20,996 nucleotides of DNA from a virus, in IMG/VR virus record IMGVR_UViG_3300021962_000777, positions 1 through 20,996 of that record. One strand, written 5' to 3'. Shown in pieces: positions 1,501 through 20,996 of the stretch. The position numbers and the translations under genes are program-made. Every line of letters begins with the position of its first letter. The stretch's first letter is position 1. Under the pieces are notes generated by a model. That model was not told the origin of the DNA and ran no database searches. It saw nothing but the letters and a program-made list of their open reading frames with translations.

Positions 1501-4500
1501 ATGGATTTCAATCAATCGCCATATTTTGATGATTTTGACGAACTAAAACAGTTCTATCGTGTGCTGTTTCGTCCCGGTGTGGCCGTACAGGCCCGAGAGA
1601 TGAATCAACTGCAGACTATACTGCAGGATCAAATCACTAAATTTGGTAATCACGTATTTAAAGAAGGCAGCGTGGTGATTCCAGGTCAAGTAACCTATCA
1701 TCCTCGAGCTCGTTACATCAAACTGGGCAGCAGCAATTTGGGAGTACAGGAGCTTAGCTATCTCGAAGGCAAGGAAATTTCTGCAGAAACAGATGGTACT
1801 GGTCTGCGAGCCTTTGTAGTCAAAGCCATACCCAGCAATGGCATTGATCCTGATACTTTGATTGTGACTTACAACAGTGGAAATCAACAAGTCAGCGGTG
1901 GATCCAATCAAATCACTGGATTTAAATTTTTAGCCGATCAGATTCTCTATGTTGTCGACGAACCCGCACTCAACATCATTGTCAGCGCTGCCACCAGTGC
2001 AGTCACTGATGATTATACTGCAGTAGCTGCCATCCAAGAAGGTGTGTATTATCTTGCTGGTTGTTTTGTCAGCGTACCAGCAGCATCTGCGATTGTGGAA
2101 AAATATGTAACCGACCCCACTACTATTTCCGCCAAGGTCGGCATCAAATACACCGAAGTAATTGTCACTGAAAGTGAAGACAATACTTTGACCGACAATG
2201 CCTCGGGCAGTCTTAACTATGCCGCTCCTGGCGCGCATCGTTATAAAATTTCCACAGAATTCATAACTTTGCCCTTGGAAGAAAGCCCACCGGGTTTTGT
2301 TGAACTGGTGCGCATTCTTGACGGCGTTGTATTAAAAATTCAAAACCGTGCGTTGTACAATGTGTTGGAAGATACCTTGGCGCGGCGTACCTACGACGAA
2401 AGCGGCAACTACGTTGTCAACGATTTTAAATTTGATGTGCGCGAAGCGCGTAAAAACGATCGCGGATCATGGAAAGCCAGTGCCTATTATGCCGTAGGTG
2501 ACTATGTTGAAGCCAGCACGGCAGGACGTTTTTATGAATGTATTCGCAGCGGCACCAGCGGTGGTACTGAACCCGGAGCGTTTGCCAGTTACGATCAATC
2601 GTCCAGTGTGACTGATGGTGCTGGTACGGGTCCAATCTGGAGATTTAACACCAATCCAGTAAACAATCGTGGACTCTACGATCCAGGTTCCACCAATGCC
2701 AATATTCAGGCTCTGGCCAATTCAAGCAACGTAGTGTTGTCATTCGGGCCCGGCAAGGCATACGTCAAGGGCTATGAAATCGACAATCAGGTCAATAGTT
2801 TTTTGACCTTGCCCAAGTCCCGCACTACGGCCAGCAGCAACAACGTAACTCTGCAGACTCCCGAAGGCAACTACATCTATGTGGATCGTACTCGTACCTA
2901 CGGCGTGCCCAACACCAAGCTCGGCGGTTTGGTGTATTTGTTTGATCGTCCTATCTTCGATCCCGCCAATCAATTCAAGTTTGGTTATGGTCGACGTGTG
3001 GGTCAGGGTCGCATTAAATTTGTGGACTATGATGCCAGCGGCGGACTGAAACTTGGTTTGTTTGATCTTCGCATGGATCCGGGTCGGGTATTTGATCGCG
3101 ATGTAGACAGTGTGATACAGTTTGACACCAGTGTCAGCATCATCAACCGAGCCTACAATCTCAGCGGCGGTGTGAAATATGTCGGCGGAGTTCTGGGCGG
3201 CAGCAATGTATTATGTCAGCTAAGCGGTGGTGTGAATCACAGCGGTGGTGCCACAGCGGGCGCCAGCATACCTGCTGGAACCGCATTTACAGTCACCAGC
3301 GGTACAGTGGGCGCCAATGCTAATTTTTCTGAATTTCGTATTGGTGATGTCATTACTTTTGGTTCAACTGCAAATGCAAATCGATATACTGTGCAGGCCA
3401 TCAACAGCATAACATCAATAACTGTTATAGGCAGCAGTGTGGTGTCAATGTTGGCTACAGCAACTTCAATATTTGTCAGTGTACCGGCTCAGTCAGTAAT
3501 TGGTGTGGGTATTCCCGGCACAGTGCAGACCAAATTTTTAAGCGAAACTCGCATCGGCGATACCGTGCGCGTTGGTGTGCATGCCACCGGCACAGTAACG
3601 CAGATCCTAAGCGACACTCGCATGTTGATCACCAGTGTAATTACAACCGCATCCATTGGTGTGGTTGGTGTGGGTACCGCCAACAGCATTGTGCTTGGCA
3701 GTGGTCTTCTACAGCCCGATATTTTGTATCAAGGTCAAGTGGCGCAGTTCGCCACTGAAGTTTATGCAAATTATGCGCTGGGTATCAACAGCAAACGTCT
3801 CAGTGGATTGTTCACCATCACTGACTTTACTGGCAATGCTACTACGGTGCCGGCACACGCTGCCATCAGACTTACTGGCACTACTGATGCTCGACTGAGT
3901 TTAGAAGCTCGAGCCGGTGATTTGATTAGCATCAATGATCAACGCATGATATTGACCTACATCAGCAGCAACAACGTAGGATTCGCTATTCGGCCGGACA
4001 GCACAACTCTGGGCAGCACTACTGCGCAGTTTCCAATTATTCGCATCAACAACAGCATCATTGATCCTGACAACGATAGTTTGATTTATCGAGTGGCAGA
4101 TGTTGTACAGAGCATGCGCAACAATGTCTATCAAGTATACACTACGTATCAATTTCAGGCTGTCAGTGCCACAAATTCGTTTTCGTTTACTTTGACTTCT
4201 GCATTAAGTGGAAATCAACAGGATACCTTGGCCACCAACGATCCCAGTTATTTTATATTGGCGCGGCGCGATGTGTCTGCTCTGACCAACCCACTGCGAG
4301 TAGTCAGTGTTGTACAGTCCGGCGGCGGTTTAGTTACTGTGACACTGTCTGACAATTTGGTAAGTGGGGGTAATTATACTTTGTCGTATCCAGTGTCGCG
4401 CAATGCCAGCGATACCAATGCTGAATTGGCTGGTGGACGTCGCACAAAAACTTTGTTGGTGGATTCTACTACTACATACCTAACAAGTTCTACCGCACAA

Positions 4501-7500
4501 CAATCCACACTGACATTGAACAACACAGACGTATATTGTCTCAATAAAGTATTGATGTACAGTTCTTTTGTGGCATCCTGGCCGGCTGCCTATACAGCGG
4601 CTGATGTGCAGGACATCACTGAAAATTATACGTTTGACAATGGTCAACGATCAGCGTATTATGATTATGCATCATTGAAATTAAAACCTGGACGACCAGT
4701 ACCTACGGGCAGCGTGCGAGTATTCTATGATTATTTTAGTCACAGTGCAGGCGATTATTTTGCCTACAACAGCTATGACAACGACTATGTGCCCTATGAA
4801 AAAGCGCCAACCTTCAATGGCGTTAATTTAAAAGATTGTTTGGATTTCCGTCCCAGCATAGATTCTGGAGATTTTGAACCTCCGCGATTTGGTACTGGTT
4901 TCTTGACCAACATCACATATTTTCTGGGACGCAAAGATAAGGTCCTGCTGGATCAAAATGGCACGTTCTATACTGTGGCATCCGCTAGTTCACTCAACCC
5001 AGCCACACCAGAGTACAGCAACGAAAATTGTGTGCAATTGTATGATCTTACTTTGACGCCCTACACCAGTGTGGCAGGTTGGCCCAGCATTTCTACTAAA
5101 AAAATTGATAATCGACGATACACCATGAAGGACATCGGCGGTATTGACAAACGATTGGAAAATTTAGAAATAACCACTGCCCTGAGTTTGTTGGAAACCA
5201 ATGCCAGCAGTCTGCAGATTCGCGACAACAACGATCCAACTTTGGAACGATACAAAACTGGTTTCTTTGTGGACAATTTTGGTGATACCAGCAACGCAGA
5301 TTTCCAAAGCGGATCAAGATTCAGCGTAGATTTTCAAAATCAAGTTTTATATCCACACATTACTGATGATGGGTTCATACTGCGTGAAAAAATAAGCGCG
5401 ATTTCTCCGACATCAACTGTGGGCGAAATGCCGGCAATTGATGGTGTGCGCACCGGGTCTGGTGCTCGATATCGCGTAACCGGTGATTTATTGACTTTGG
5501 ATTATAGCACTGCGGTAGTGGTGCAACAGCCATTGGCTACAACTTCTATATCGGTAACGCCGTTTTTAAAATTGTTGTTCCAACAAACCATCGACATCAA
5601 TCCAGACAGTGACATCTATGTCAACCCAGTCACCATCAACAACATTGTCAGTGAAAATACTGCCATTACACAACAACAAGCCATTAATAACCTCCGAAAC
5701 AGTGGTGATGCGCGTCCATATAATATCAGTGAAACCATAGTAAATACGCTGTTAAAAAGTGAAACAATCAGCGAATTAATTCCGTTCTGCCGAGCCAACA
5801 CCATTGTATTTAAAATGAAGGGTATGAAACCTCGAGCCGAACACTATGTGTTTTTTGACGATTTTGATGTCGGAGATTATTGCCAAGGCGCAATTAAAAT
5901 GACCTTTACTGCGCTGGAAAATTTGGATGTCAACACCAGTCGTCCCAATGCCGGTACTGCCGGCGAATGGGGCGGATATGCTCGGTGGCGGAGCAATGCA
6001 GAAAGCTACACTGTTGATAAATCGCGTCGCACGCATTATCCTACAGACTACGACGATCGCATGCCCAGTGCTAGTTTCCGTGATAAAAATTGCAAGGCTT
6101 TGAGCCGCGGCGCAGTAGTGTTGATGTATGAGACTGTGCTTGATAAAATAGTTGAAGTTGGCAGCGGTGTGGTTGTGCATCAAGAAGGTGCCACAGCGTA
6201 CATTGTCAATGGTCGAGGTAAACTCAGTGCTAAATTTATTCGAGCCAATGCCAGTTCCAACAATGGTGCGGGCTACAATTACAGCGGCGCCACTTTCCGA
6301 GTAGGTGTGAGTACTGACAATCTGCGCACTTTGAGCAACCCAACCACAGTCACACCAAACAATGTCTGCACTGACAGCACCGCCGGCACTTTCTTCAGTG
6401 ATGATAAAGGTACCTTGATCATATTGATGGATTTGCCAGATCAAGACGGCGCGCGGTTTATCACTGGTCGAAAACCCATTGTGATTGTGGACGATGCCAC
6501 CAATACTGCAGACAACTGGGATAGTCGAGCCACTGGAACATATACGGTGGAAGGATTTACTGTTACAACCACCAACAGTTTCCATTCCACCAAGACCTTC
6601 CGAGCCGTGCCCTATGATCCTGTGGCACAGAGTTTCAAATTGCCGGACACATTTAGCAGTGGTGCATTTATCACTGACATCGACATTTATTTTGCACAAA
6701 AACCCGTTGCCGAGCGTGCGCCAATTCGATTAGAAATTCGCCCCTGTGATTTAACTGGTCGACCCAGCGGTTCTGACATTGTACCGGGTTCAGTGGTCAC
6801 CAAATATCCTGATGAAATTACTGTGGATAATTCAGCGCGCGTTGCCACAAAATTCACCTTTGAAATACCAGTGTATTTACTGCCAGATCAATATTATGCT
6901 TTTTGTTTAAAATCCGACAGCGTATATTATAAGGTTTGGATCGCCACCCTAGGTGGATTTGACATCAACGATCCCAACAAGATGCATAACTTTCAGACTT
7001 TGTTTGGTAGTTTATTTAAATCTCAGGATGGTGCAGTATGGACTGAAGATCAGTTCAGTGATATTAAATTTACCCTGAACCGCGCAGTATTCAATGCCGG
7101 CACACAAGGTACAGCCTATGTGGTTAACGAACCCATGCCTGGACAAAGTTTGGTCACAGATCCATTCTTGTTCACGCATAGCAGCACCTTGGTGCGAGTA
7201 TCTCATCCTAACCATGGCCTGCGCAACGGCGATTACATACGATTTGGCAGCGAATATTGGAGACAACAATATGAAACTGCAATTTCTTTAAACACCACTG
7301 TAACGTTCCCTGGTGTTAACATAGAAGTCGCCAAAATTTTTGGTAATACGTTGGAACGTGATCAAGTATACTACGACGACACAGTAGCTAGATTCCAGGT
7401 CAGTGAAGTAACACTGAACAGCTATGTTATTGACCTGGCAGATACGGTGGCAGATTTGGGCGTGGGTTCTGTAACAATACCACCGCAACGATCTTCTGGA

Positions 7501-8628
7501 GGCAATGATGTCATTGGATATGGAAATCTGCAATATCATGTGGCAGTGCCGGGCGCCAAGGTCATGAATTTCCAAGAAACATCATTGTCATTTGATGTCG
7601 ATACTGTGAAAGGTATAACCTATGATTATGATTCAAGTAGCACAGACTACAGCGTAAAAAACGATGGTGGCAACATCAACGTTGGCAAGGTGTTTGACGA
7701 ACCTAAAGTCATACTGAGCTCAATCAATGAATCTTTGAAACACCCCGCATCGCGTACCTACACCAACGGAGAAACTTGGCAGCATAGCTATGTTGGTAAG
7801 TTTACACTGGACTCCACGTCGGATCATGTAAGCCCAGTTATTGATTTAAGCACCCTGTATGTGCGCACCATCACCCATAATATCAACAATCCCACAGCAA
7901 GCTCACGGCTGTACAACAATGGTTCGGTGTTGCCTGCATTGAATTCTAGTTCTGCACCAGTATTAATTAAACAGGTTGTAACTGCCAATAATACTACAAT
8001 TAGTTTCGATTCCGGCACCAGCAGTATGTCGTCCACTGCCGGTACATTCAGTGCTTTGGTGCCGGGCAGTTACATTGTAACTACCGGAGATGTAGTCAAT
8101 GGCTACAACATGAACAGCAGCACTGGTTTCTTGGTTACTGGTGTGAGTGCCGATGGCAGCACAGCCTTCCTCAGTGGCAATGTCATCAACGTTCAATCCG
8201 GATTCAACATCACTGTGACTCAGTTGGCCAATTATGTAGATGAAATTGGTGCAAGTTTTGGTTCCATCCAAAATAAATATTGCAGCAAAAAAATTAATCT
8301 CACCAATCCAGCCAGTCAGCTCAAGCTGATTTTCCAGGCTTCGGTGCCACATGAAGCCGATTTTGACATATATTATAAAACCGGACCAGCAACCGCGGAC
8401 TTTACTCTGCGGCCCTGGACTCAGTTCCAACCATTGCCCACCATTAACAAGACCACCAAGCGTGATGATTTCACGGAATTCACCATTGACATCACTGACT
8501 TTGATGCATTGGGCAATCCCAAGGATCTTCCGACATTTACTGCGTTTCAGCTTAAAATAGTGATGCGCAGCACCAATGGTGCTAGGGTATCGCAGTTTAA
8601 AAATCTGCGAGTAATTGCTCATGCGTAG
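1501..8628 (+). CDS. Giant DUF4815-type baseplate/tail structural protein (2375 aa)
   Basis: The N-terminus (FDELKQFYRVLFRPG, REMNQLQTILQDQI, GNHVFKEGSVV) is the signature of DUF4815 proteins, which are virion structural proteins of T4-like aquatic phages. The family motif GPGKAYVKGYEI lies near residues 417-428. A carbohydrate-binding-like module (residues about 321-382) interrupts the domain before that motif. Residues about 580-830 hold repeated RxGDxI beta units. The central region carries YTMKDIGGIDKRLENLE (about 1205-1221) and GFFVDNFGDT, and later the FKMKGMKPRAEHYVFFDDFDV block (about 1436-1458), all conserved in cyanophage structural proteins from memory. The C-terminal third is beta-rich with no family I can name. 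It has no signal peptide or membrane segment. AAGGA lies at 1491-1495, 5 bp before the ATG. Its place directly after gp8 suggests a peripheral baseplate or fibre-base role. It is unusually long, and the 3' end overlaps the next gene by 8 bp. Confidence 0.87.
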   Translation: MDFNQSPYFDDFDELKQFYRVLFRPGVAVQAREMNQLQTILQDQITKFGNHVFKEGSVVIPGQVTYHPRARYIKLGSSNLGVQELSYLEGKEISAETDGTGLRAFVVKAIPSNGIDPDTLIVTYNSGNQQVSGGSNQITGFKFLADQILYVVDEPALNIIVSAATSAVTDDYTAVAAIQEGVYYLAGCFVSVPAASAIVEKYVTDPTTISAKVGIKYTEVIVTESEDNTLTDNASGSLNYAAPGAHRYKISTEFITLPLEESPPGFVELVRILDGVVLKIQNRALYNVLEDTLARRTYDESGNYVVNDFKFDVREARKNDRGSWKASAYYAVGDYVEASTAGRFYECIRSGTSGGTEPGAFASYDQSSSVTDGAGTGPIWRFNTNPVNNRGLYDPGSTNANIQALANSSNVVLSFGPGKAYVKGYEIDNQVNSFLTLPKSRTTASSNNVTLQTPEGNYIYVDRTRTYGVPNTKLGGLVYLFDRPIFDPANQFKFGYGRRVGQGRIKFVDYDASGGLKLGLFDLRMDPGRVFDRDVDSVIQFDTSVSIINRAYNLSGGVKYVGGVLGGSNVLCQLSGGVNHSGGATAGASIPAGTAFTVTSGTVGANANFSEFRIGDVITFGSTANANRYTVQAINSITSITVIGSSVVSMLATATSIFVSVPAQSVIGVGIPGTVQTKFLSETRIGDTVRVGVHATGTVTQILSDTRMLITSVITTASIGVVGVGTANSIVLGSGLLQPDILYQGQVAQFATEVYANYALGINSKRLSGLFTITDFTGNATTVPAHAAIRLTGTTDARLSLEARAGDLISINDQRMILTYISSNNVGFAIRPDSTTLGSTTAQFPIIRINNSIIDPDNDSLIYRVADVVQSMRNNVYQVYTTYQFQAVSATNSFSFTLTSALSGNQQDTLATNDPSYFILARRDVSALTNPLRVVSVVQSGGGLVTVTLSDNLVSGGNYTLSYPVSRNASDTNAELAGGRRTKTLLVDSTTTYLTSSTAQQSTLTLNNTDVYCLNKVLMYSSFVASWPAAYTAADVQDITENYTFDNGQRSAYYDYASLKLKPGRPVPTGSVRVFYDYFSHSAGDYFAYNSYDNDYVPYEKAPTFNGVNLKDCLDFRPSIDSGDFEPPRFGTGFLTNITYFLGRKDKVLLDQNGTFYTVASASSLNPATPEYSNENCVQLYDLTLTPYTSVAGWPSISTKKIDNRRYTMKDIGGIDKRLENLEITTALSLLETNASSLQIRDNNDPTLERYKTGFFVDNFGDTSNADFQSGSRFSVDFQNQVLYPHITDDGFILREKISAISPTSTVGEMPAIDGVRTGSGARYRVTGDLLTLDYSTAVVVQQPLATTSISVTPFLKLLFQQTIDINPDSDIYVNPVTINNIVSENTAITQQQAINNLRNSGDARPYNISETIVNTLLKSETISELIPFCRANTIVFKMKGMKPRAEHYVFFDDFDVGDYCQGAIKMTFTALENLDVNTSRPNAGTAGEWGGYARWRSNAESYTVDKSRRTHYPTDYDDRMPSASFRDKNCKALSRGAVVLMYETVLDKIVEVGSGVVVHQEGATAYIVNGRGKLSAKFIRANASSNNGAGYNYSGATFRVGVSTDNLRTLSNPTTVTPNNVCTDSTAGTFFSDDKGTLIILMDLPDQDGARFITGRKPIVIVDDATNTADNWDSRATGTYTVEGFTVTTTNSFHSTKTFRAVPYDPVAQSFKLPDTFSSGAFITDIDIYFAQKPVAERAPIRLEIRPCDLTGRPSGSDIVPGSVVTKYPDEITVDNSARVATKFTFEIPVYLLPDQYYAFCLKSDSVYYKVWIATLGGFDINDPNKMHNFQTLFGSLFKSQDGAVWTEDQFSDIKFTLNRAVFNAGTQGTAYVVNEPMPGQSLVTDPFLFTHSSTLVRVSHPNHGLRNGDYIRFGSEYWRQQYETAISLNTTVTFPGVNIEVAKIFGNTLERDQVYYDDTVARFQVSEVTLNSYVIDLADTVADLGVGSVTIPPQRSSGGNDVIGYGNLQYHVAVPGAKVMNFQETSLSFDVDTVKGITYDYDSSSTDYSVKNDGGNINVGKVFDEPKVILSSINESLKHPASRTYTNGETWQHSYVGKFTLDSTSDHVSPVIDLSTLYVRTITHNINNPTASSRLYNNGSVLPALNSSSAPVLIKQVVTANNTTISFDSGTSSMSSTAGTFSALVPGSYIVTTGDVVNGYNMNSSTGFLVTGVSADGSTAFLSGNVINVQSGFNITVTQLANYVDEIGASFGSIQNKYCSKKINLTNPASQLKLIFQASVPHEADFDIYYKTGPATADFTLRPWTQFQPLPTINKTTKRDDFTEFTIDITDFDALGNPKDLPTFTAFQLKIVMRSTNGARVSQFKNLRVIAHA
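2464..2646 (+). other. Carbohydrate-binding-like module inside the DUF4815 protein
   Basis: Residues about 321-382 read as W-x-A-x-Y-x-VGDYV, then a Gly-Arg-Phe-Tyr-Glu-Cys segment, then GTSGGTEP, a VTDG motif and GPIW. This W..Y..GD.V / Y.C / GTSG..EP / DG..W layout is the pattern of small chitin-binding-type (CBM5/12-like) modules often embedded in phage tail proteins. It lies between conserved DUF4815 segments, so it is an insertion. Sugar binding is inferred from the aromatic layout only. Confidence 0.6.
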
Positions 8629-8863
8629 TTTGATAAAAGTCGAGGATCACGAACATCTGCGTCGTGATTCTCGCACCAACGCCATTGTGGACATCAACAG
8701 TGAGGCCTACAACAATTATTTACAGTCCAAAAGCCGTCGACAGCAGCAACACCAACGGTTAGACGATCTAGAAAATAAGATAAATAACTTCGAGACCGAT
8801 CTATCGGAAATAAAGCATCTGTTGCAACAACTGCTGGGACAACAACATGGCCATAACAATTAA
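8621..8863 (+). CDS. Small coiled-coil virion-associated protein
   Basis: An 80-aa protein beginning MRSLIKVEDHEHL. I chose ATG 8621, which overlaps the previous stop (ATGCGTAG), over a TTG at 8615 because ATG starts with short overlaps are the rule here and the conserved-looking sequence begins at this Met. Residues about 1-40 are charged (RRDSRTNAIVD, NNYLQSK). The C-terminal half is a clear coiled coil: from residue about 47, hydrophobics L-L-I-F-L-I-L-L fall at alternating 3/4 spacing over nearly four heptads. Similar small proteins lie next to DUF4815 genes in T4-like cyanophages, from memory. An oligomeric connector or fibre chaperone is plausible but not shown. The coding sequence contains the 19-bp promoter-like repeat at 8771-8789. 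Confidence 0.78.
   Translation: MRSLIKVEDHEHLRRDSRTNAIVDINSEAYNNYLQSKSRRQQQHQRLDDLENKINNFETDLSEIKHLLQQLLGQQHGHNN
8779..8786 (+). promoter_or_regulatory. Candidate late promoter (GATAAATA) inside the coiled-coil gene
   Basis: GATAAATA lies within the coiled-coil CDS, 60 bp before the ATG of the next gene at 8847. The flanking 19 bp (8771-8789) are identical to the sequence around the box before gp8. It would drive the small beta protein and the 2252-aa gene. The sequence identity is seen; function is inferred. Confidence 0.42.
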
Positions 8864-9185
8864 TTTAAGCGTTGATCAGGGCGCGGATTTCGAAGCCACC
8901 GTAAAACTTTATAGCAGCAACACCGACGCATTGAATCTATCGGGATATGGATTCAGTGGTCAGATTCGCCGAAGCTATGAATCGCAGAGCACATCGGCTG
9001 CATTCACCATTACATCACCCAATCCCACCAATGGCGAATTAACATTGAGTCTAGCCGACACAACTACCGCGCAGTTGCGCGCTGGGAGGTATGTGTATGA
9101 CATCGTAATTACCGACACTTCTACGGGCGTAAAAACTCGAGCAGCCGAAGGTATTGTGAGTGTCATGCCTGGCGTAACAAGGTAG
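8847..9185 (+). CDS. Small beta-rich protein resembling a BppU N-terminal domain
   Basis: A 112-aa protein starting MAITINLSVDQGADFEATV. The pattern is DQGADFE, LNLSGYGFSGQIRRSY, GELTLSLADTTTAQLRAGRYVYDIVI and a C-terminal EGIVSV. This matches the small immunoglobulin-like domain found at the N-terminus of siphophage baseplate upper proteins, and as stand-alone genes in T4-like cyanophages. In BppU that domain anchors receptor-binding proteins to the baseplate, so an adaptor for the following giant fibre protein is a reasonable inference. The start overlaps the previous CDS by 17 bp. The upstream RBS is weak, so translation is probably coupled. The stop is 4 bp before the next start. Confidence 0.75.
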   Translation: MAITINLSVDQGADFEATVKLYSSNTDALNLSGYGFSGQIRRSYESQSTSAAFTITSPNPTNGELTLSLADTTTAQLRAGRYVYDIVITDTSTGVKTRAAEGIVSVMPGVTR

Positions 9186-9189
9186 CACT

Positions 9190-12100
9190 GTGACAATTCG
9201 CAAAATAACCAATGTCACTACTGGCCTGGTAACTCTGGCCGATCTTCGCATGCCTGCTGCGTTTGTGCGGCGTGCCACCATGTCGCAGAATCGCATCACT
9301 GCGGCCGAAGTAACTGAAACCAGCATCATCAAAGCCACTGCACGCACTGCACAACCAGTGGCGGGCATCAGCTTCATTGATCGGTATCTCAACAACTATC
9401 GCGATGTTGTCACCCTGTTGGATGCTCTGGGCATCACCACCGTAAAACAACTGGTGGATGGCACAGCCTTGCTGGATGTGACAGCCTTGTTTCTTCAATA
9501 TGCTCCGCAGAGAAATTTTGCGGATGCCATAGCGGCCATCGATGATCTGGTTTCTCTGATACTGCTGGCCAATCGTTCTGCGGATGATCAAATCATTATT
9601 GGCCAAGAACTGCAGCTGTTCTTTGACAAGTATCAGTTTGACATAATAGACCCTCTGGATCGACAACGGTTCGACCTTGCAACATTTAAATCGCACAGCA
9701 TTGACTTTGCTGATCAAACTCAATTCACCATTGCACGCAGTTCGCAGGATCAAACTCAGGTTGACGATCAGTTAGAGTTTGGTCATCTTCGTGGTTTGTT
9801 CGACGTTGCAGTGACCAATTCTAAGTTGACTTGGTTGGCTGATCTGGATAAACGTCACATCGTATCCATTGATTCGATCCGAACTTTCAGCATAACCAAA
9901 CTGTCACAGGAACTGGCAGCGGTCGGCGATCTGCACGCACTGCTGTTGCAACGACCGCTGCTGGACGACAACACCATCACCGATTTGCCGTCGTTGCAGC
10001 CCGAGCCCAGAAAGTTCGAACTCATCACCGTCACCGACAATCGACTGGGTTTCTTCATCGGCAAGGGCATACGCGATGATCAAGGACTGACCGATTTGTT
10101 CCGAGCCTTTGATGGTCTGACCTACACCATGACCTATAGTCTGCGAGACAGCTTTGGGTTCAACGATTTCTTTGCCCGCAGATTCACAGTGGTGCGAGGT
10201 GTGCGTGATGGATTTGCAGATGCACAGATCATAGATCAACGCAGCTTCAAAACACTGGCTCGACCGGTGCGCAGCACAGCATTGTCCACACAGGATGTGA
10301 CTACGCGTATCATTGGACGCGGCATCAACGATGCACTGAGTTCTGTCGACATTGAACGCTATGTATTAAGCACCCTGCGCACCGAACAAATTGCGTTGAC
10401 CGATGTGGATCGACTGCGCATAACCAAGCTAAGAGCGCACAACGTACAACTCAACGATGTTGCGCGTCGCCGCGTCACCATATTTAAACGTCACAGCTTC
10501 ACCGCCACTGATAGAATTGCGTTTGGCGGAAGATTCGTTTTGCGTGATAATTTTAGCACACCGGATGCATCACAAGATTTCTTTGTAAAATCACGAGCGC
10601 ATAATTTCACTTTAACATCGCGCAATCGATACAATGCCACCAAACGGCTTGCCGAACTCATCAGTCCAGATCGACCCCAACCGCCGTTGTATGCTGCGTT
10701 TGTAGCTCCGGTGTACGCTGGTTTCCGGTTATTGACCGATCCCATCATCAGTCGCACCAAGGTGGTTATTTCCACTGAAAGCATTGTCGACACCGCAGAT
10801 CAAACCGGTGGTCGTTTGTTGTTTACTGGCTTTGGTGGAGAACGTCAGGTAACCTTTGCGCCAGTGTCGAGTCGTAATTACGACAGTGGTTGGGTTTATG
10901 AGTTCACCACAGAATTTCAAGCCGGTGTGGTTAATCGCAGCAATGGATTAGAGCGTCCCGATGAAGGCGAAGATCTAGTATTGTCCTACAAGGTCGATGA
11001 TGGTTCGTTTGTCACGGCCTGTACGCTGTGGGCCGGGGCCAACGACTGGGCCACAGCGGTCGGCACCAGTCTTACCGTGACCACCAGCGTCGCCATCAAA
11101 CTCGGCAGTGCGTCACAGAGCAGCGTAACCTGGAAAATTTCACAGTTTAATTATAGCAATCCGAACTTTGACCAGTATGCGGTGCGGCGAGCCTTTGCGT
11201 TCAACAGCACCAGCAATTGGTTCCTGGAACCAACTGCCACAGCGCCTGAATTCAACCGACAGATGAGTCTGGCCGATGTGGTGCGCATCAACGACAATAC
11301 CGACGCTAGCGCTACGCCGGTGCGACAGGTCTACCTATTTGATAAAACTACGCTGAGAAATTTCAAGGGTCTGCGGGATCAATTTGCTGCTCTTGAAGAT
11401 CTAAGAATCAATCAATTTAAAGTCATACCGCGACAACAAAATACAGTAACCATCACCGAAGAAGCCGATCTGTTACCAAATTTCGGTAAACGTGACAGCC
11501 TAACAATACAGGATACTCGTCAGGATTTTTTCATTATTAAACGCCTGGCCGACGATGCACCGGCACTGGATCTTGTAGGTGTGTTTGATGGTTTGATATA
11601 CCAGAATTTAATGAGCAAAGCCGATGCCTTCACTCTGCCTGACTTTTTTGCTCGTAGTTTTGATGCCAAATTAATTGCTCAAGTATCGGTGCCCAATTCT
11701 TTTGGTTACACGACACTGGTTGGAAATTACATACGTAATTCCGAAAATCTCGATAAATCGCCCTGGGAATATTCCAGCGGTGGGGTTGTTGGTGATTATC
11801 TCAGCGGACCTTATGGTACACTTCCACAGACCGGTAACGTTATATTGTCGACAGTGGCACAAACTGCGTTCTATGGCATCACCACAGATCGTCGGCAACA
11901 TAGACTTGAATTTACTCACTCAAAATTATCAGGCACACCGTTACAAACATTTTCTGGCAGAGTAATCGCCTTCAATAGCCAAGGCAACTCTGAGACAATT
12001 GCTAATTTTTCGTATACTCCGAATACCAATTTAGCACCTACCACAGTATTTACTTCAGTGCCAAGTATAAATCCCGTGGCATTGAAAGTAGAATTTAATA

Positions 12101-15100
12101 CTTCTGGTATAGGATATCCATTTCATGCCATCTATTCAGTTAGTTTATCTGAAATCAACTATTCTACCTATAACAGAACTGGTTTTGATACTGGTTCTGG
12201 AGTATTTTTCCGAGCAACCAACAGCACCAGCCCATCACAAGTATTACCAGTACAGACTTCGACGTCGTCGGACAGTGTATTGGTGGGATTTCCGCTGAGC
12301 TCGGCTACAAGATACAACTCAAAACAAGAAACTCTTGCATTTAATTTTAACAAAGACGCAAAACAAAGCACCAGCATTACTGTATCAGGCTGGGGCACCA
12401 GCATCACCAGCACTGCCTCGGATCGCGATTTCATCGTCATCGGCGATCCCACTACAGTAACTTCAGGTCAAAGTCGCCGCAGCGGCACTACACTGGAAAA
12501 TGTTCGATATACTGTAAATAAAGCTGCGGATTTTGATTCAGGTCAGCCTGCAAGAGTCGTTGCAGGAGGCAATCGTAGCCTCCGTTTCCAGCCGTCGGAA
12601 AGCAGCAGCGAAACACTGCGGTTCGATGTAACACAGCGCGACACCGATACACAGATCATCGGTGCGGGTCGTACTGCACAGCAGGTAAGATTCAGCGGCG
12701 ATCTAGAAAGAGCGGCATTCTTTCTCACCACCATAGCTCGAGCCAGCACCAGCTATACTATTACGCGCAAGACCATAGAAGGTGTGCCCGGAGTACAGAG
12801 TTCAGTGCAGGTCACCGTTGGTCCGTTGGACAACGATGCCGTGGGCGTGTTTGACTTGTTCGACAGCATAATTTTTGTGGGTCGAGGCATTGCAGACTTC
12901 CTCACCATTGGCAGCGGCATCGACCAACGACAGACTGCGGCAGAACGCATAACATTCCTGATTACGCGTCGCATGGGTGAAGGCCAGAGTGTGAACGGTG
13001 CACCGGACTTCAGCGAAATAATGCAACGCGCATTTCAGACCGTACAAAAACCTGTGAAACAAGGTCTGAACACCACCACAGTGTTCGGCAACATCACAGT
13101 AACTGCCAACGATACTGATCGCCTGTTCATTGGCACCAATGTGCCGGCGCGGCGCGTCAGCGGCGATGCACAGGAAAACGTCAGTTACTTTGTGGACAAG
13201 AGTGCGAAACTCGGTGCGGTACGAACCATTGCAGGTTGGGGCACTACCTTGGCTGGCGGCACTAGCAGTGGCGATTACGTATTGATTGGTGATCCTAGCA
13301 TCAGTCCCGCAGGAACCCAGAGTCGTCGCAGCGGCGCTACCTTGGAAAATGTGCGGTATCAGATCAACGTAGATTTAAAAACCAGAACTTCTAGTATATA
13401 CGCTTCAGGTCGCAGTGGTTTGATAGCGTTTGATGCCACGGGTGTGGCAGATTTTGTTCCGCTGTATTTCTACAACAACGAATTTTTTGGGCCGCGTGGT
13501 GGTGGACGTTCCTACGGAACGCGCGCTGTAGGCGGCGGCGGGCACTATGTAGGTGGGTCACAACTTACAGATGGTGGATCAACCGGCCTCGTAGTAATTT
13601 ATGCCAACGATACCACGCCCATAGTATTTTTTGATGCCGGCGCAACAAGCTGGACAGTCACTGCGGGGGTTACCAGTGTAAGTCTGCATGCCTACGGTGG
13701 CGGTGCTGGTGGACACGCTGAAAGTGGAATCCCACCCAATACCTATGTTGGCGCTGGCGGTGGCGCATTTGCTGCTACCAGCAGCATCGCTGTAACCTCG
13801 GGACAAACTATCTATGTTCAAGTTGGCAACCGAGGAATTGGTACTGTTAGTGTTACTATATTCAGTGGCGGTGGTGGTAGCAGCTGGGTCAACGTTGTTA
13901 GTAATGCCATACCCACCAACACCAGCCAAGGTGTGTTGGCCGCAGCTCCTCCAGCCACACCATTGAGTCAACGCACACTGGGCGGAAGCGCAACAAGCAG
14001 CATTGGCGTGATTCGCTTCAGCGGTGGCGATGGTGTATCCAGCACAACTTCTTCACTCAATCTTGGCGGTGGCGGAGCAGCTGGGCCCGACGGACCAGGT
14101 GGACGTGGAACAACAACACGCAACGGCGGTGCCAACGGAGGACTGTCGGGTGACGAAGGAGGCTGGAACGGTCCGCTGATATCAAACCGTACCTTTAACA
14201 ATACAGCAGTACAAATTTTAGACGTCGATCGCCTCAGCAGTTTTACTCAATATCAAGATACTGTTCAATCACGGGACTTGAATGGTATATTCAAGACTGT
14301 GGCAATCGCTGCCAAGGCCGGTGCTAGCTACACCATTACGCGCAAGACCATTGATGGTGTGGCCGATGCGCAGAGTTCAGTGCAGGTCACCATAACATCA
14401 CCGCAACCGGATCAACTCGGTGTCTTTGATTTTTATGTAGCAAACTTCGGTACGGTGCGCAGGTTCCCCGAGGCCGTTGTGATCGGCAGCGGACTCGGTC
14501 AACGACAAACCACGCTGGAAAACGTATCCTTCCTTATTACTAAATTCTTCGGCAACGATACCGCTGTACCTATTGATCTTGTAGGTGTGTTCGACGGATT
14601 AACCTATGCAAGTTTCTTGTTGACTCGTGATGCACAGGTCATAGGTTCCGGTGCTACATCGGGCACACGTTATTTTGGCAACAAAGAAAACATAACGTTC
14701 AACATCAACAAAAACGCCAAGCTCGGTACAGTGCAAACCATTGCTGGTTGGGGCTCTACGGTAGCCGGCGGCACCAGCAGCGGTGACTATGTTGTCATCG
14801 GCGATCCAAGTCTCAATACTAATCCAACCACTTCTACGCAGAGTCGTCGCAGCGGTGCTACCTTGGAAAATTTCCGCTACACCGTAGAAAAACTCGCAGA
14901 CAATCTAGTACCCGCCGCTGTTGTAGTGGGTGGTAATCGTAGTTTAAGATACCAACAATCAGAAAGCAGCAGCGAGACTCTGAGATTTGACGTTGTTAAT
15001 CGCCAGTTCGATACACAGATCATCGGTGCAGGCCGCACATCACAGCTCGTAAGATTCAGCGGCGATCTAGAAAGAGCAGCCTTTGCCTTTAACCTGCCAG

Positions 15101-15948
15101 CCAAGGCCGGCACCAGCTACACCATTACTCGCAAAACCATCGATGGTGTGGCTGGAGCACAAAGTTCAGTGCTGGTTTCAGTGGCTCCGCAGCAGCTGGA
15201 TCAGCTCGGTGTCTTTGATTTCTTTGAATCGGCTCTGGGTACAGCACGTAGGTTCGCAGATAGTTTGGTGATTGGCAGTCAGGTTATTACTCAGCTATTG
15301 ATTACACGTCAGCCCCGTGATGATCAACTTGCAGTAGATGATTTGTTTTTTACCTATGCTGGACGAAAAACCGATGTTCTTACGGTTGGTTTACCCAATA
15401 CGGTGCGGGTCAGCGACAGTAACATTGAGAAAATAAGTTTTTCTATTAACAAACCTGCCAAACTTGGTGTGGCGCGCACTGTGGCGGGCTGGGGCACCAG
15501 CATCACCGGTACAGCCACTGATCGAGATTTTGTGGTGATTGGCGACCCCACAGTAGTGACCAGTGGTCAGAGTCGTCGCAGCGGCGCTACCTTGGAAAAT
15601 TTCCGTTATACTTTCGGATACAACAAAAACGATGGCGCTACAATTAATGATGTTGATCGTCGAATCGTTGGTTTTAAACGATCCTTGGTTGAATTACAAC
15701 AAATTCAGGACAATTTAGACAAAATATTACGAGTGTTTCGTGTATTTTTAGACGACACCACAGTTAATGATGTTGTTGGTGTGGCAAGACTTCTACCAAG
15801 ATTCTTCGACGATACCTTGGGTGATCTTGATCCATTGAATAATATAAATACATTGATCAGTCGTGGAACTCTACGCATCACCAATTACGTCGCTGACATT
15901 GATTACTTTGAATTTGATTATGTTGGCGAATCGCGCATTATTTCTTAA
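9190..15948 (+). CDS. Giant modular repeat-rich tail fibre/adhesin-like protein (2252 aa)
   Basis: The start is GTG at 9190, 4 bp after the previous stop with AAGG just upstream; the first in-frame ATG is about 20 codons later. In order: residues about 1-390, Asp-rich alpha/beta stretch; about 397-485, five tandem ~18-aa repeats (RxHxxxLxDxxRxR); about 530-655, a reelin-like beta-sandwich with PDEGEDLVLSYKVDDG; about 840-1010, a jelly-roll-like module of lower GC; 1028-2143, tandem A-B-C beta units; about 1434-1667, a glycine-rich domain interrupting unit 2; then a C-terminus ending LRITNYVADIDYFEFDYVGE. That last motif (R-I-x-N/D-Y...Y-F...DYVGE) is typical of cyanophage fibre-like proteins, from memory. 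The modular make-up, repeats and position between baseplate and neck genes suggest a long peripheral fibre that contacts the host. No enzymatic motif was seen, nor an intramolecular chaperone domain. Confidence 0.82.
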   Translation: MTIRKITNVTTGLVTLADLRMPAAFVRRATMSQNRITAAEVTETSIIKATARTAQPVAGISFIDRYLNNYRDVVTLLDALGITTVKQLVDGTALLDVTALFLQYAPQRNFADAIAAIDDLVSLILLANRSADDQIIIGQELQLFFDKYQFDIIDPLDRQRFDLATFKSHSIDFADQTQFTIARSSQDQTQVDDQLEFGHLRGLFDVAVTNSKLTWLADLDKRHIVSIDSIRTFSITKLSQELAAVGDLHALLLQRPLLDDNTITDLPSLQPEPRKFELITVTDNRLGFFIGKGIRDDQGLTDLFRAFDGLTYTMTYSLRDSFGFNDFFARRFTVVRGVRDGFADAQIIDQRSFKTLARPVRSTALSTQDVTTRIIGRGINDALSSVDIERYVLSTLRTEQIALTDVDRLRITKLRAHNVQLNDVARRRVTIFKRHSFTATDRIAFGGRFVLRDNFSTPDASQDFFVKSRAHNFTLTSRNRYNATKRLAELISPDRPQPPLYAAFVAPVYAGFRLLTDPIISRTKVVISTESIVDTADQTGGRLLFTGFGGERQVTFAPVSSRNYDSGWVYEFTTEFQAGVVNRSNGLERPDEGEDLVLSYKVDDGSFVTACTLWAGANDWATAVGTSLTVTTSVAIKLGSASQSSVTWKISQFNYSNPNFDQYAVRRAFAFNSTSNWFLEPTATAPEFNRQMSLADVVRINDNTDASATPVRQVYLFDKTTLRNFKGLRDQFAALEDLRINQFKVIPRQQNTVTITEEADLLPNFGKRDSLTIQDTRQDFFIIKRLADDAPALDLVGVFDGLIYQNLMSKADAFTLPDFFARSFDAKLIAQVSVPNSFGYTTLVGNYIRNSENLDKSPWEYSSGGVVGDYLSGPYGTLPQTGNVILSTVAQTAFYGITTDRRQHRLEFTHSKLSGTPLQTFSGRVIAFNSQGNSETIANFSYTPNTNLAPTTVFTSVPSINPVALKVEFNTSGIGYPFHAIYSVSLSEINYSTYNRTGFDTGSGVFFRATNSTSPSQVLPVQTSTSSDSVLVGFPLSSATRYNSKQETLAFNFNKDAKQSTSITVSGWGTSITSTASDRDFIVIGDPTTVTSGQSRRSGTTLENVRYTVNKAADFDSGQPARVVAGGNRSLRFQPSESSSETLRFDVTQRDTDTQIIGAGRTAQQVRFSGDLERAAFFLTTIARASTSYTITRKTIEGVPGVQSSVQVTVGPLDNDAVGVFDLFDSIIFVGRGIADFLTIGSGIDQRQTAAERITFLITRRMGEGQSVNGAPDFSEIMQRAFQTVQKPVKQGLNTTTVFGNITVTANDTDRLFIGTNVPARRVSGDAQENVSYFVDKSAKLGAVRTIAGWGTTLAGGTSSGDYVLIGDPSISPAGTQSRRSGATLENVRYQINVDLKTRTSSIYASGRSGLIAFDATGVADFVPLYFYNNEFFGPRGGGRSYGTRAVGGGGHYVGGSQLTDGGSTGLVVIYANDTTPIVFFDAGATSWTVTAGVTSVSLHAYGGGAGGHAESGIPPNTYVGAGGGAFAATSSIAVTSGQTIYVQVGNRGIGTVSVTIFSGGGGSSWVNVVSNAIPTNTSQGVLAAAPPATPLSQRTLGGSATSSIGVIRFSGGDGVSSTTSSLNLGGGGAAGPDGPGGRGTTTRNGGANGGLSGDEGGWNGPLISNRTFNNTAVQILDVDRLSSFTQYQDTVQSRDLNGIFKTVAIAAKAGASYTITRKTIDGVADAQSSVQVTITSPQPDQLGVFDFYVANFGTVRRFPEAVVIGSGLGQRQTTLENVSFLITKFFGNDTAVPIDLVGVFDGLTYASFLLTRDAQVIGSGATSGTRYFGNKENITFNINKNAKLGTVQTIAGWGSTVAGGTSSGDYVVIGDPSLNTNPTTSTQSRRSGATLENFRYTVEKLADNLVPAAVVVGGNRSLRYQQSESSSETLRFDVVNRQFDTQIIGAGRTSQLVRFSGDLERAAFAFNLPAKAGTSYTITRKTIDGVAGAQSSVLVSVAPQQLDQLGVFDFFESALGTARRFADSLVIGSQVITQLLITRQPRDDQLAVDDLFFTYAGRKTDVLTVGLPNTVRVSDSNIEKISFSINKPAKLGVARTVAGWGTSITGTATDRDFVVIGDPTVVTSGQSRRSGATLENFRYTFGYNKNDGATINDVDRRIVGFKRSLVELQQIQDNLDKILRVFRVFLDDTTVNDVVGVARLLPRFFDDTLGDLDPLNNINTLISRGTLRITNYVADIDYFEFDYVGESRIIS
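10378..10644 (+). repeat. Five tandem ~18-residue protein repeats
   Basis: Successive segments of 18, 18, 19, 17 and 17 residues begin with Arg or Lys-Arg and follow the pattern R-x-x-x-[IVF]-x-[LAT]-[TN]-D-x-x-[RAF]-x-x-[IVF]. Examples are RTEQIALTDVDRLRITKL and RAHNVQLNDVARRRVTIF. DNA identity between copies is low, so these are old repeats kept at protein level. They could form a regular rod; this is inference. Confidence 0.6.
11680..12210 (+). other. AT-rich jelly-roll-like module in the fibre gene
   Basis: Residues about 831-1007. The segment opens with YIRNSENLDKSPWEY followed by a Gly/Pro-Tyr-Gly-Thr turn, resembling the start of CBM4/9-type jelly-roll modules common in phage fibres. 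By hand count GC is about 34% over 12001-12180, against 48% at 12841-12900 and 55% at 9421-9480. The module is beta-rich and has no internal copy elsewhere in the window. Confidence 0.55.
12271..13116 (+). repeat. Tandem unit 1 (A1-B1-C1) of the fibre gene
   Basis: A1 (12271-12519) runs from DSVLVG through SGWGTSI and VIGDPTTVTSGQSRRSG to LENVRYT. B1 (about 12562-12813) carries GGNRSLRFQPSESSSETLRF, DTQIIGAGRT, RFSGDLERAAF and TSYTITRKTI. C1 follows with AVGVFDLF...LTIGSGIDQRQT. The same order recurs in units 2 and 3. Shared stretches at nucleotide level (for example around 12687-12714 and 15050-15078) show that duplication was fairly recent or that the copies are kept alike by recombination. 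Confidence 0.88.
13117..14628 (+). repeat. Tandem unit 2, interrupted by a glycine-rich cassette
   Basis: A2 (13117-13370) ends TQSRRSGATLENVRY. The expected B module does not follow. A glycine-rich domain and flanks occupy about 13371-14298, after which only the last third of B (AKAGASYTITRKTIDG to SSVQVT, about 14299-14397) appears. C2 then begins (QLGVFDFY...VIGSGLGQRQTTLE). The A-to-A spacing is 1512 bp, against 846 bp and 744 bp for the neighbouring units. Confidence 0.85.
13489..14190 (+). other. Glycine-rich adhesin-like domain
   Basis: Residues about 1434-1667 contain many Gly runs (GGGRSYG, VGGGGHYVGG, YGGGAGGH, VGAGGGAF, FSGGGGSSW, LGGGGAAGPDGPGGRG, NGGANGGLSGDEGGW). Between them is a beta-like segment around SWTVTAGVTSVSLHAYGGG. 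The pattern resembles the phage glycine-rich domains with polyglycine-II cores, such as the gp38 adhesins of some T-even phages. Those sit at fibre tips and decide host range. Here the domain is internal rather than terminal. Receptor binding is inferred. Confidence 0.72.
14629..15372 (+). repeat. Tandem unit 3 (A3-B3-C3) of the fibre gene
   Basis: A3 (14629-14884) is closest to A2, sharing AGGTSSGDYV and TQSRRSGATLEN. B3 (14926-15180) is closest to B1, sharing SESSSETLRFDV, DTQIIGAGRT, VRFSGDLERAAF and SYTITRKTI. C3 begins QLGVFDFFESALG and diverges after VIGSQV. The unit is intact, which shows that the standard arrangement is A directly followed by B. Confidence 0.88.
15373..15616 (+). repeat. 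Partial tandem unit 4 (A4 only)
   Basis: A4 runs from DVLTVG to TLENFRYT and has no B or C after it. Its middle (GWGTSITGTATDRDF, VTSGQSRRSG) follows A1 rather than the adjacent A3, whereas its 3' end is identical to A2 over 33 nt (15568-15600 with 13318-13350). It caps the repeat array before the C-terminal domain. Confidence 0.85.
15843..15850 (+). promoter_or_regulatory. Candidate late promoter, perfect TATAAATA
   Basis: This is the only perfect TATAAATA I found on the + strand. It lies in the last 110 bp of the fibre gene, 116 bp before the ATG at 15967. It matches the T4 late consensus exactly, so it probably starts a transcript for the downstream small proteins and beyond. The match is seen; use as a promoter is inferred. 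Confidence 0.5.
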
Positions 15949-20072: not shown

Positions 20073-20996
20073 ATGGCCGCACCAGCAACACGACAACAGC
20101 TCATTGATTATTGTCTTAGGAAACTCGGACATCCAGTAACGGAAATCAACGTCGATGACGATCAGGTTGAAGATCGCATCGACGATGCGTTCCAATACTA
20201 TCGTGACTATCATTACGACGCCGTACAGCGGATATTCATGAAACACATGATAACCGCTAGTCGTATGACTGTGACTTCCAACGCAGTGTCCAGCACAGTG
20301 AATCTTTTTGCCCTGGGCGAAACCATCACGGGGTCGATCAGTCAAGCAACTGCCTTGGTTACACAGGAAGGTCCGGGCAACACCAGTACTGGCACCACTT
20401 TGCTGCTGCAGAACATTCGAGGTACGTTTGTGGCCGGCGATGTACTGACCGGCAATCGCAGTGCGGGTACCGCCACCATGGTGAGCATTGCTCTGGGTGA
20501 CATGGATAATCGGTATATCCAACTCAACGATGCCATCATCAATGTAGTGCGAGTATTGCCCTTCACTGACACCAAGACTGGCATGGACTACATGTTTGAT
20601 CTTCGGTATCAGCTAAGACTCAACGATCTTTTTGACCTGCTAAGCACCAGCATAATCTATTATCAGCAGATTAAATCACATTTAAGTTTGATTGAAATGC
20701 TGTTGGTGGGACAAAAAACTGTGGAATTCAGTCGTCACACCAATAGATTGTACGTAGAAATGGCCTGGGACAAAGAAGTCAATCCCGGTGAATATGTCAT
20801 CGTGGAATGTTATCGCATTCTCAATCCCTCAGAATTTCCCGATGTGTACAACGACTGGTTCCTAAAACGCTATGCCACTGCGTTGATCAAACGGCAATGG
20901 GGGGAGAATCTTAAAAAGTTCGAAGGCATACAAATGCCGGGCGGCGTGACTCTCAACGGACAAAAAATCTGGGATGAAAGCATAGCCGAAATCAAT
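20073..20996 (+). CDS. 13: Neck protein, T4 gp13-like (3' end beyond window)
   Basis: 308 codons are open to the window end with no stop. T4 gp13 is 309 aa and, with gp14, forms the neck that closes the filled head and receives the tail. The N-terminus (RQQLIDYCLRKLGHPV, EINVDDDQVEDRIDDA, YYRDYHYDAVQ) is the gp13 hallmark. So is the region from residue 142 on: DLRYQLRLNDLFDL, HLSLIEMLLVGQKTVEF, RHTNRLYVEMAWDK, WFLKRYATALIKRQWGENL and MPGGVTLNGQKIW. Residues about 69-141 are an added segment between these two conserved parts. It contains two copies of an F-x-x-G-[ED]-x-[IL]-T-G motif (from Phe79 and Phe119). Only the last few residues appear to be missing. Its position after the fibre block matches T4 order. 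Confidence 0.93.
   Translation, partial: MAAPATRQQLIDYCLRKLGHPVTEINVDDDQVEDRIDDAFQYYRDYHYDAVQRIFMKHMITASRMTVTSNAVSSTVNLFALGETITGSISQATALVTQEGPGNTSTGTTLLLQNIRGTFVAGDVLTGNRSAGTATMVSIALGDMDNRYIQLNDAIINVVRVLPFTDTKTGMDYMFDLRYQLRLNDLFDLLSTSIIYYQQIKSHLSLIEMLLVGQKTVEFSRHTNRLYVEMAWDKEVNPGEYVIVECYRILNPSEFPDVYNDWFLKRYATALIKRQWGENLKKFEGIQMPGGVTLNGQKIWDESIAEIN
20277..20495 (+). other. Duplicated beta insertion within gp13
   Basis: Residues about 69-141 of gp13. Two repeats read FALGETITGSISQATALV (from residue 79) and FVAGDVLTGNRSAGTATMV (from residue 119), separated by a Gly/Thr/Ser-rich linker. This F..GE.(I/L)TG..S..TA..V unit is a small beta element often seen in surface proteins of aquatic phages. 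The gp13 proteins I remember join the two conserved parts directly. Confidence 0.65.

Follow-up and report, generated by a model that had tools for sequence, protein, structure and literature searches.

The host-recognition region

The window, which is the whole stretch of DNA analysed here, comprises the entire IMG/VR record IMGVR_UViG_3300021962_000777, a metagenomic contig of 20,996 bases. It begins with a gp8-type baseplate wedge gene (57–1484), which is followed by a gene for a DUF4815/VrlC-type baseplate protein (1501–8628, + strand), recognised through PF16075 (E 6e-54), phrog_358 and homologues named 'VrlC', and by a gene for a 112-aa protein (8847–9185). Next comes the gene for P0001 (9190–15948, + strand), a fibre-like structural protein of 2252 aa that contains a set of repeats and a glycine-rich cassette, and which is syntenic with the fibre genes of two related contigs, L002 and L019. 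Three more proteins, structural or without assignment, are encoded between P0001 and a neck protein (head–tail adaptor Ad2, phrog_211; 20073–20996, + strand) that runs off the end of the record. An internal segment of this neck protein, residues ~60–159, appears similar to the tail-fibre families phrog_693 and phrog_9851.

For the DUF4815 protein, the best annotated matches come mostly from cyanophages and from phages of Pelagibacter and Methylophilales; since identity to them is just 29–34%, the virus is regarded as a distant T4-like one. The photosystem family PF00124, sought as a clue to the host in the L002 and L019 contigs, was found in neither. In the pelagimyophages, VrlC and the neck gene bound the host recognition cluster (PMC7029224). 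The DUF4815/VrlC-type protein and the neck protein form the left and right edges of such a region here and P0001 lies between them, the position of a host-recognition-cluster fibre in T4-like marine phages. The placement agrees with a preliminary description of this DNA, which had suggested a host-range module inside a repeat scaffold.

The repeat scaffold of P0001

The repeats of P0001 are modules termed A, B and C, all on the + strand and delineated by self-alignment. The first unit consists of A1 (12268–12522), which holds two copies of a ~30-aa motif, a complete B1 (12523–12876) and C1, with B1 divisible into a B-front (12523–12636), a type I B-middle (12637–12735) and a B-tail (12736–12876). 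The second unit opens with A2 (13111–13368), the last scaffold module ahead of the cassette, and after the glycine-rich segment it continues with the rest of B2, namely a type II B-middle (14257–14310; DTVQSRDLNGIFKTVAIA), and then with B-tail 2 and C2 (14311–14548). A3 (14620–14892) and a complete B3 (about 14893–15225) make up the third unit, and A4 (15364–15618), which has no B after it, closes the scaffold. The preliminary description had counted three A-containing units, one fewer than the four A modules found, whilst its observation that A leads into a full B in units 1 and 3, and into a glycine-rich segment in unit 2, is borne out by the self-alignment.

The four A modules are genuine repeats, with pairwise protein identities of 52–75% (DNA families D1–D6), the closest pairs being A2/A3 at 75% and A1/A4 at 74%. 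Between units 1 and 3 the B-front and B-middle are 71–73% identical. Unit 3 therefore joins an A of the unit 2 type to a B-front and B-middle of the unit 1 type, a mixed make-up that hints at recombination among the units. A single ~30-aa motif, IGxxxxxRxxGxxxENxxFxxNK, is common to A, B-front, B-middle and C. The window has 14 copies of it, the L002 fibre 18 and the L019 fibre five. A profile made from the window copies alone recovered 13 copies in L002, two in L019 and none in reversed proteins. AlphaFold2 gave a pLDDT of 35 for the scaffold and also for the cassette, too low for a usable model of either.

The protein ends in a conserved C-terminal tag (15796–15945, + strand; RGTLRITNYVADIDYFEFDYVGESRIIS). 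Its pattern, TNYVxDIDYFExDYxGESR, is shared with numerous other proteins encoded on IMG/VR contigs (L020–L049; YTVDMSYFAEDYVGESRxF), and the tag is perhaps a common attachment or assembly signal. A conserved domain is also found in the front half of P0001 (10741–11199), and its counterpart in the L019 fibre (residues 675–793) matches Reelin_subrepeat-B with an E of 1.5e-13.

Borders of the inserted segment

The inserted glycine-rich segment is ~290 aa long, covers approximately residues 1394–1683 of the 2252 and lies between A2 and the remainder of B2. On the DNA, the cassette and its linkers occupy 13369–14256 (+ strand), in place of B-front 2, and have no counterpart in units 1 and 3 or in the L002 and L019 fibres. 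The A2-like sequence stops at residue 1393 (nt 13368), and a search for similarity to B-front in the 52 residues that follow the end of A2 gave none.

By self-alignment with B1 and B3, the B module resumes only at about 14299–14311. Residues ~1690–1707 (nt ~14257–14310) nevertheless belong to the scaffold, as they match an alternative B-middle (DPVQAQDLNNIFKVV and DAVQPYDLNSIFKTF) that occurs in units 2 and 3 of the L002 fibre, both of which are uninterrupted. Identity is 45–54% across 22–24 aa, and the score of 52 compares with 33 ± 4.3 for shuffled sequences, being reached by 1 of 300. The same residues do not match the middle of B1 or B3, for which the scores were reached by 177 and 124 of 300 shuffles, respectively. 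As the residues represent an L002-type B-middle, only the B-front (~35 aa) was replaced, and the end of the cassette lies near 14256 and not at 14298.

Together with the uninterrupted units in relatives, these borders make an insertion after A2 with loss of one ~35-aa B-front well supported at the level of sequence. The feature that had been described is thus real, but its size was overstated by one short module: the left border given as ~13370 is refined to nt 13368, the right border moves inwards, and the loss at the front of B2 concerns B-front and not the front two thirds, with the type II B-middle kept. An alternative is that B2 was never like B1 and B3, unit 2 being an old and different type of unit in which nothing was replaced. 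The unit 2 B-middle does indeed differ in type from those of B1 and B3; against this, units 2 and 3 of L002 have the same alternative B-middle after a normal B-front, so this type of unit exists without a cassette, and B-tails 2 and 3 share 67% identity. With homology to B1 and B3 evident in the tail of B2, the old-unit explanation is very unlikely.

Insertion of the cassette into a genuine scaffold could also be mimicked by assembly, if a short repeat had joined two different sequences. A 33-nt stretch at the end of A2 (13318–13350, + strand) is identical to 15568–15600 in A4 and ends 18 nt ahead of the cassette. The ORF has no longer exact internal repeat, and this is the sole point at which the metagenomic contig gives reason to suspect an assembly error. 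Such a chimera is highly improbable, since a repeat that misleads assembly would be short at 33 nt, no such repeat is found at the right junction, the frame is open across 6759 nt and the GC3 of the cassette (0.39–0.43) is within the range of the ORF. In view of this last observation, GC3 was discarded as proof of a foreign origin.

Among the window's A copies, synonymous codons in the 33-nt stretch agree in 76% of pairs, as against 39% elsewhere in A (p 4e-7, a value that is overstated because the pairs are non-independent), whilst no raised agreement was seen in the corresponding A stretch of L002. The stretch could be a recombination seam or the trace of a recent gene conversion.

The cassette and glycine-rich phage domains

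Glycine makes up 21–22% of the cassette segment. The cassette is matched by phrog_4474 with an E of 4.5e-10, which falls to 2.5e-12 for the core by itself. Its second part (13606–14193, + strand; residues 1473–1668) is similar to canonical glycine-rich domains of phages over their front and middle: no composition-preserving shuffle reached its score against the glycine-rich ends of the L010 and L012 fibres (0/300), or against a glycine-rich profile drawn from HTVC008M, Melnitz-3, S-WAM1 and L012 (0/500). The similarity to phage glycine-rich fibre-end domains, in a broad sense, therefore goes beyond composition. The first part (13402–13605, + strand; residues 1405–1472), which ends GGSTGLVVIYA, resembles the end of a canonical domain, although the likeness is weak (27/500 shuffles reach the score) and suggestive only.

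The proposal that the domain was 'gp38-like' proved too specific. The cassette has no sequence match at E ≤ 10 among PDB chains, including gp38 of the PGII-sandwich type, and PF21722 (Gly_rich_2) does not match the window at E ≤ 0.1, whereas it does match HTVC008M, Melnitz-3 and S-WAM1. Moreover, the domain sits at or near the C-terminus in the comparator proteins, and the phrog_4474 type otherwise ends small fibre proteins, but the cassette lies in mid-protein with 584 aa after it and so does not take the tip position of a gp38-type adhesin. Kinship to phage proteins is seen with phrog_4474 and with L010 and L012. A tblastn of P0001, its units and the cassette against annotated phages returned nothing. 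No allelic relative of the cassette was obtained in cassette-specific scans, which gave just three distant glycine-rich fibre loci, and a search with the cassette DNA pattern yielded five matches that were largely repeats of these three loci.

The arrangement of the two parts raises the tentative possibility, as a refinement of the insertion explanation, that the cassette is a circularly permuted glycine-rich domain, or two incomplete tandem ones, remodelled after insertion. The first part ends as a canonical domain does (GLVVIYA compared with GIVIIRY) and the second part begins like a domain start. Against permutation, the match of the first part is the weak one noted above, and the rotated cassette scores no better than the cassette with a shuffled first part (76/500).

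Fibres of related viruses

Full-length fibres were found for three members of the family (the window, L002 and L019), and among them no unit occurs both with and without the glycine-rich cassette at high identity, which counts against the modular-fibre explanation given below. Scans of viral contigs with the whole of P0001, with an A-module alignment and with the 10741–11199 domain gave nothing or the L002 contig only, and a scan of genome contigs for relatives gave nothing; L019 was found through the conserved C-terminal tag. A third contig, L001, is closer in its DUF4815 protein (85% identical to that of the window), but breaks off early in the fibre gene and does not reach the repeats.

L002 is a 116-kb contig with a matching gene order, in which the C-terminal part of the DUF4815 protein is 71% identical to that of the window. 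Its fibre (L002:13172–20701; 2509 aa) has five A modules and is uninterrupted in units 2–4. In unit 1, a Laminin_G_3 domain (PF13385, E 4e-8) lies between two motifs, one ending at residue 921 and the next starting at 1135. Directly after the fifth A module (motif end 2138) comes a CBM_4_9-like domain (E 1e-4, below the Pfam cut-off), exactly as the cassette follows A2. L019, a 38-kb contig with the gene order of the window, encodes a fibre of 2906 aa (L019:1424–10144) that also contains a Laminin_G_3 domain (E 4e-9) and a CBM_4_9-like domain (E 0.0014, below the Pfam cut-off), plus an additional insert of ~450 aa (L019:3944–5294) without Pfam or PHROG match. This additional insert is possibly a beta-propeller. 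L002 and L019 have CBM domains that are related to each other, and the same holds for their LamG domains (0/500 shuffles in each case).

A glycine-rich segment was sought in the L002 and L019 fibres and neither has one, let alone one in every unit. The two syntenic relatives thus hold different inserts in one scaffold, as a modular fibre should, with uninterrupted units in L002 and other binding-type domains at equivalent junctions in both, just as the preliminary description had proposed looking for. They make the cassette explanation considerably stronger than does the window alone.

A candidate second cassette, CBM-like and starting NYIRNSENLDKSPW, is located just upstream of A1 in P0001 (11725–12225, + strand). 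Its GC3 is low, at 0.26–0.36 compared with 0.46 for the whole ORF. The similarity to the L019 CBM is weak, with a score reached by 7 of 500 shuffles, and no Pfam CBM match was found for this stretch.

Origin and possible role of the cassette

P0001 is probably a modular fibre that acquired a glycine-rich binding cassette through domain shuffling, the insert after A2 having taken the place of B-front. The protein would be a long, fibre-like virion component on a scaffold of the repeated ~30-aa motif, and members of the family would have received different binding-type domains between scaffold units. Here, a glycine-rich domain akin to small phage fibre or adhesin ends entered after A2 and displaced the ~35-aa B-front. 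The cassette may then stand as a side decoration on the fibre, its loops binding a host-surface ligand, and its exchange might alter the specificity or strength of adsorption. Putative elements of this explanation are the assembly into a fibre, the acquisition by recombination, an autonomous fold of the domain, ligand binding and any influence on host range, and a role for the cassette in host range or receptor choice is plausible. The different sugar-binding-type domains in the fibres of two relatives whose gene order is the same suggest, from sequence comparison, that these viruses alter their binding targets by exchanging plug-in domains. The 22% glycine and the mid-chain position, unlike that of known tip adhesins, count against a binding cassette.

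The same two features are consistent with the segment being a structural spacer, or a trimer-stabilising part of the shaft, and no binding domain: scaffold flanks it within the protein on either side, its glycine content is moderate and its binding role is itself putative. Yet its relatives are C-terminal adhesin-type domains, and the insert positions in related fibres hold LamG and CBM_4_9-like domains, which fits decoration, such that a spacer is unlikely. Variation through a diversity-generating retroelement was considered and rejected, as an RVT_1 reverse transcriptase is absent from the window, L002 and L019 records, all of which may be fragments.

A further extension of the modular-fibre explanation, in which the scaffold would be a dedicated plug-in platform with tolerated slots at motif boundaries, DNA seams at A ends and swaps of glycine-rich, LamG and CBM domains within one fibre gene, is quite unlikely as formulated. 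Three of seven inserts start immediately after a motif and one within 4 residues of it (p 0.0008–0.003, the starts having been set with the motifs known); when starts are taken from independent domain criteria and 30 residues are tolerated, p becomes 0.016 for the whole protein and 0.09 for the repeat region. The tendency of cassettes to start shortly after a motif is post hoc, a lead and not a result. With more relatives, a rule for the permitted positions of cassettes becomes testable. The locus offers a readable example of how T4-like marine phages may change host recognition through the exchange of domains within a single syntenic fibre gene, and with more relatives the cassettes become candidates for finding the receptors of uncultured viruses.

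Comparison with known systems

Variable fibre genes and concanavalin-A-type domains are reported for the host recognition cluster of pelagimyophages and cyanomyophages in part of PMC7029224. P0001 shares with these, as far as that part describes them, its location between VrlC and the neck gene; the variation described there for pelagimyophages is of whole genes, whereas in the P0001 family domains vary inside one syntenic gene. Carbohydrate-binding-type inserts in a conserved virion scaffold, with content that differs among relatives, are also characteristic of the evolved Dits of phages of lactic acid bacteria, where CBMs inserted in galectin loops are reported to bind the host (PMC7291167). 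Evolved Dits would work alike but are a different protein: they belong to the distal tail hub and carry the insert in a loop of the galectin domain, in contrast to P0001, a T4-like repeat fibre with a glycine-rich insert.

Glycine-rich domains described as receptor-recognising are known from gp24 of the myocyanophage Pam3 and from T2-type gp38 (PMC9608196, PMC12892980). P0001 resembles Pam3 gp24 and the PGII-sandwich adhesin gp38 (T2/S16/PP01; PDB 6F45) in having glycine-rich motifs in a fibre-type protein. Unlike theirs, its cassette is internal to a long protein, has a putative fold and no sequence match to a solved structure, and contains 22% glycine compared with the 39% given for the glycine-rich domain of Pam3 gp24, and the domain type is common to them only in a broad sense.

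The Gly_rich_2 fibre proteins of HTVC008M, Melnitz-3 and S-WAM1 come from the same type of phage, and several of their genes sit in the same region, from VrlC to neck. Their Gly_rich_2 domain ends a short protein, or nearly so, which sets them apart from P0001, as does the PF21722 match that the cassette lacks. In the Methylophilales phage Melnitz-3 (W03, MZ577098.1), the region 86867–107048 contains several Gly_rich_2 domains, which are distributed over different structural genes.
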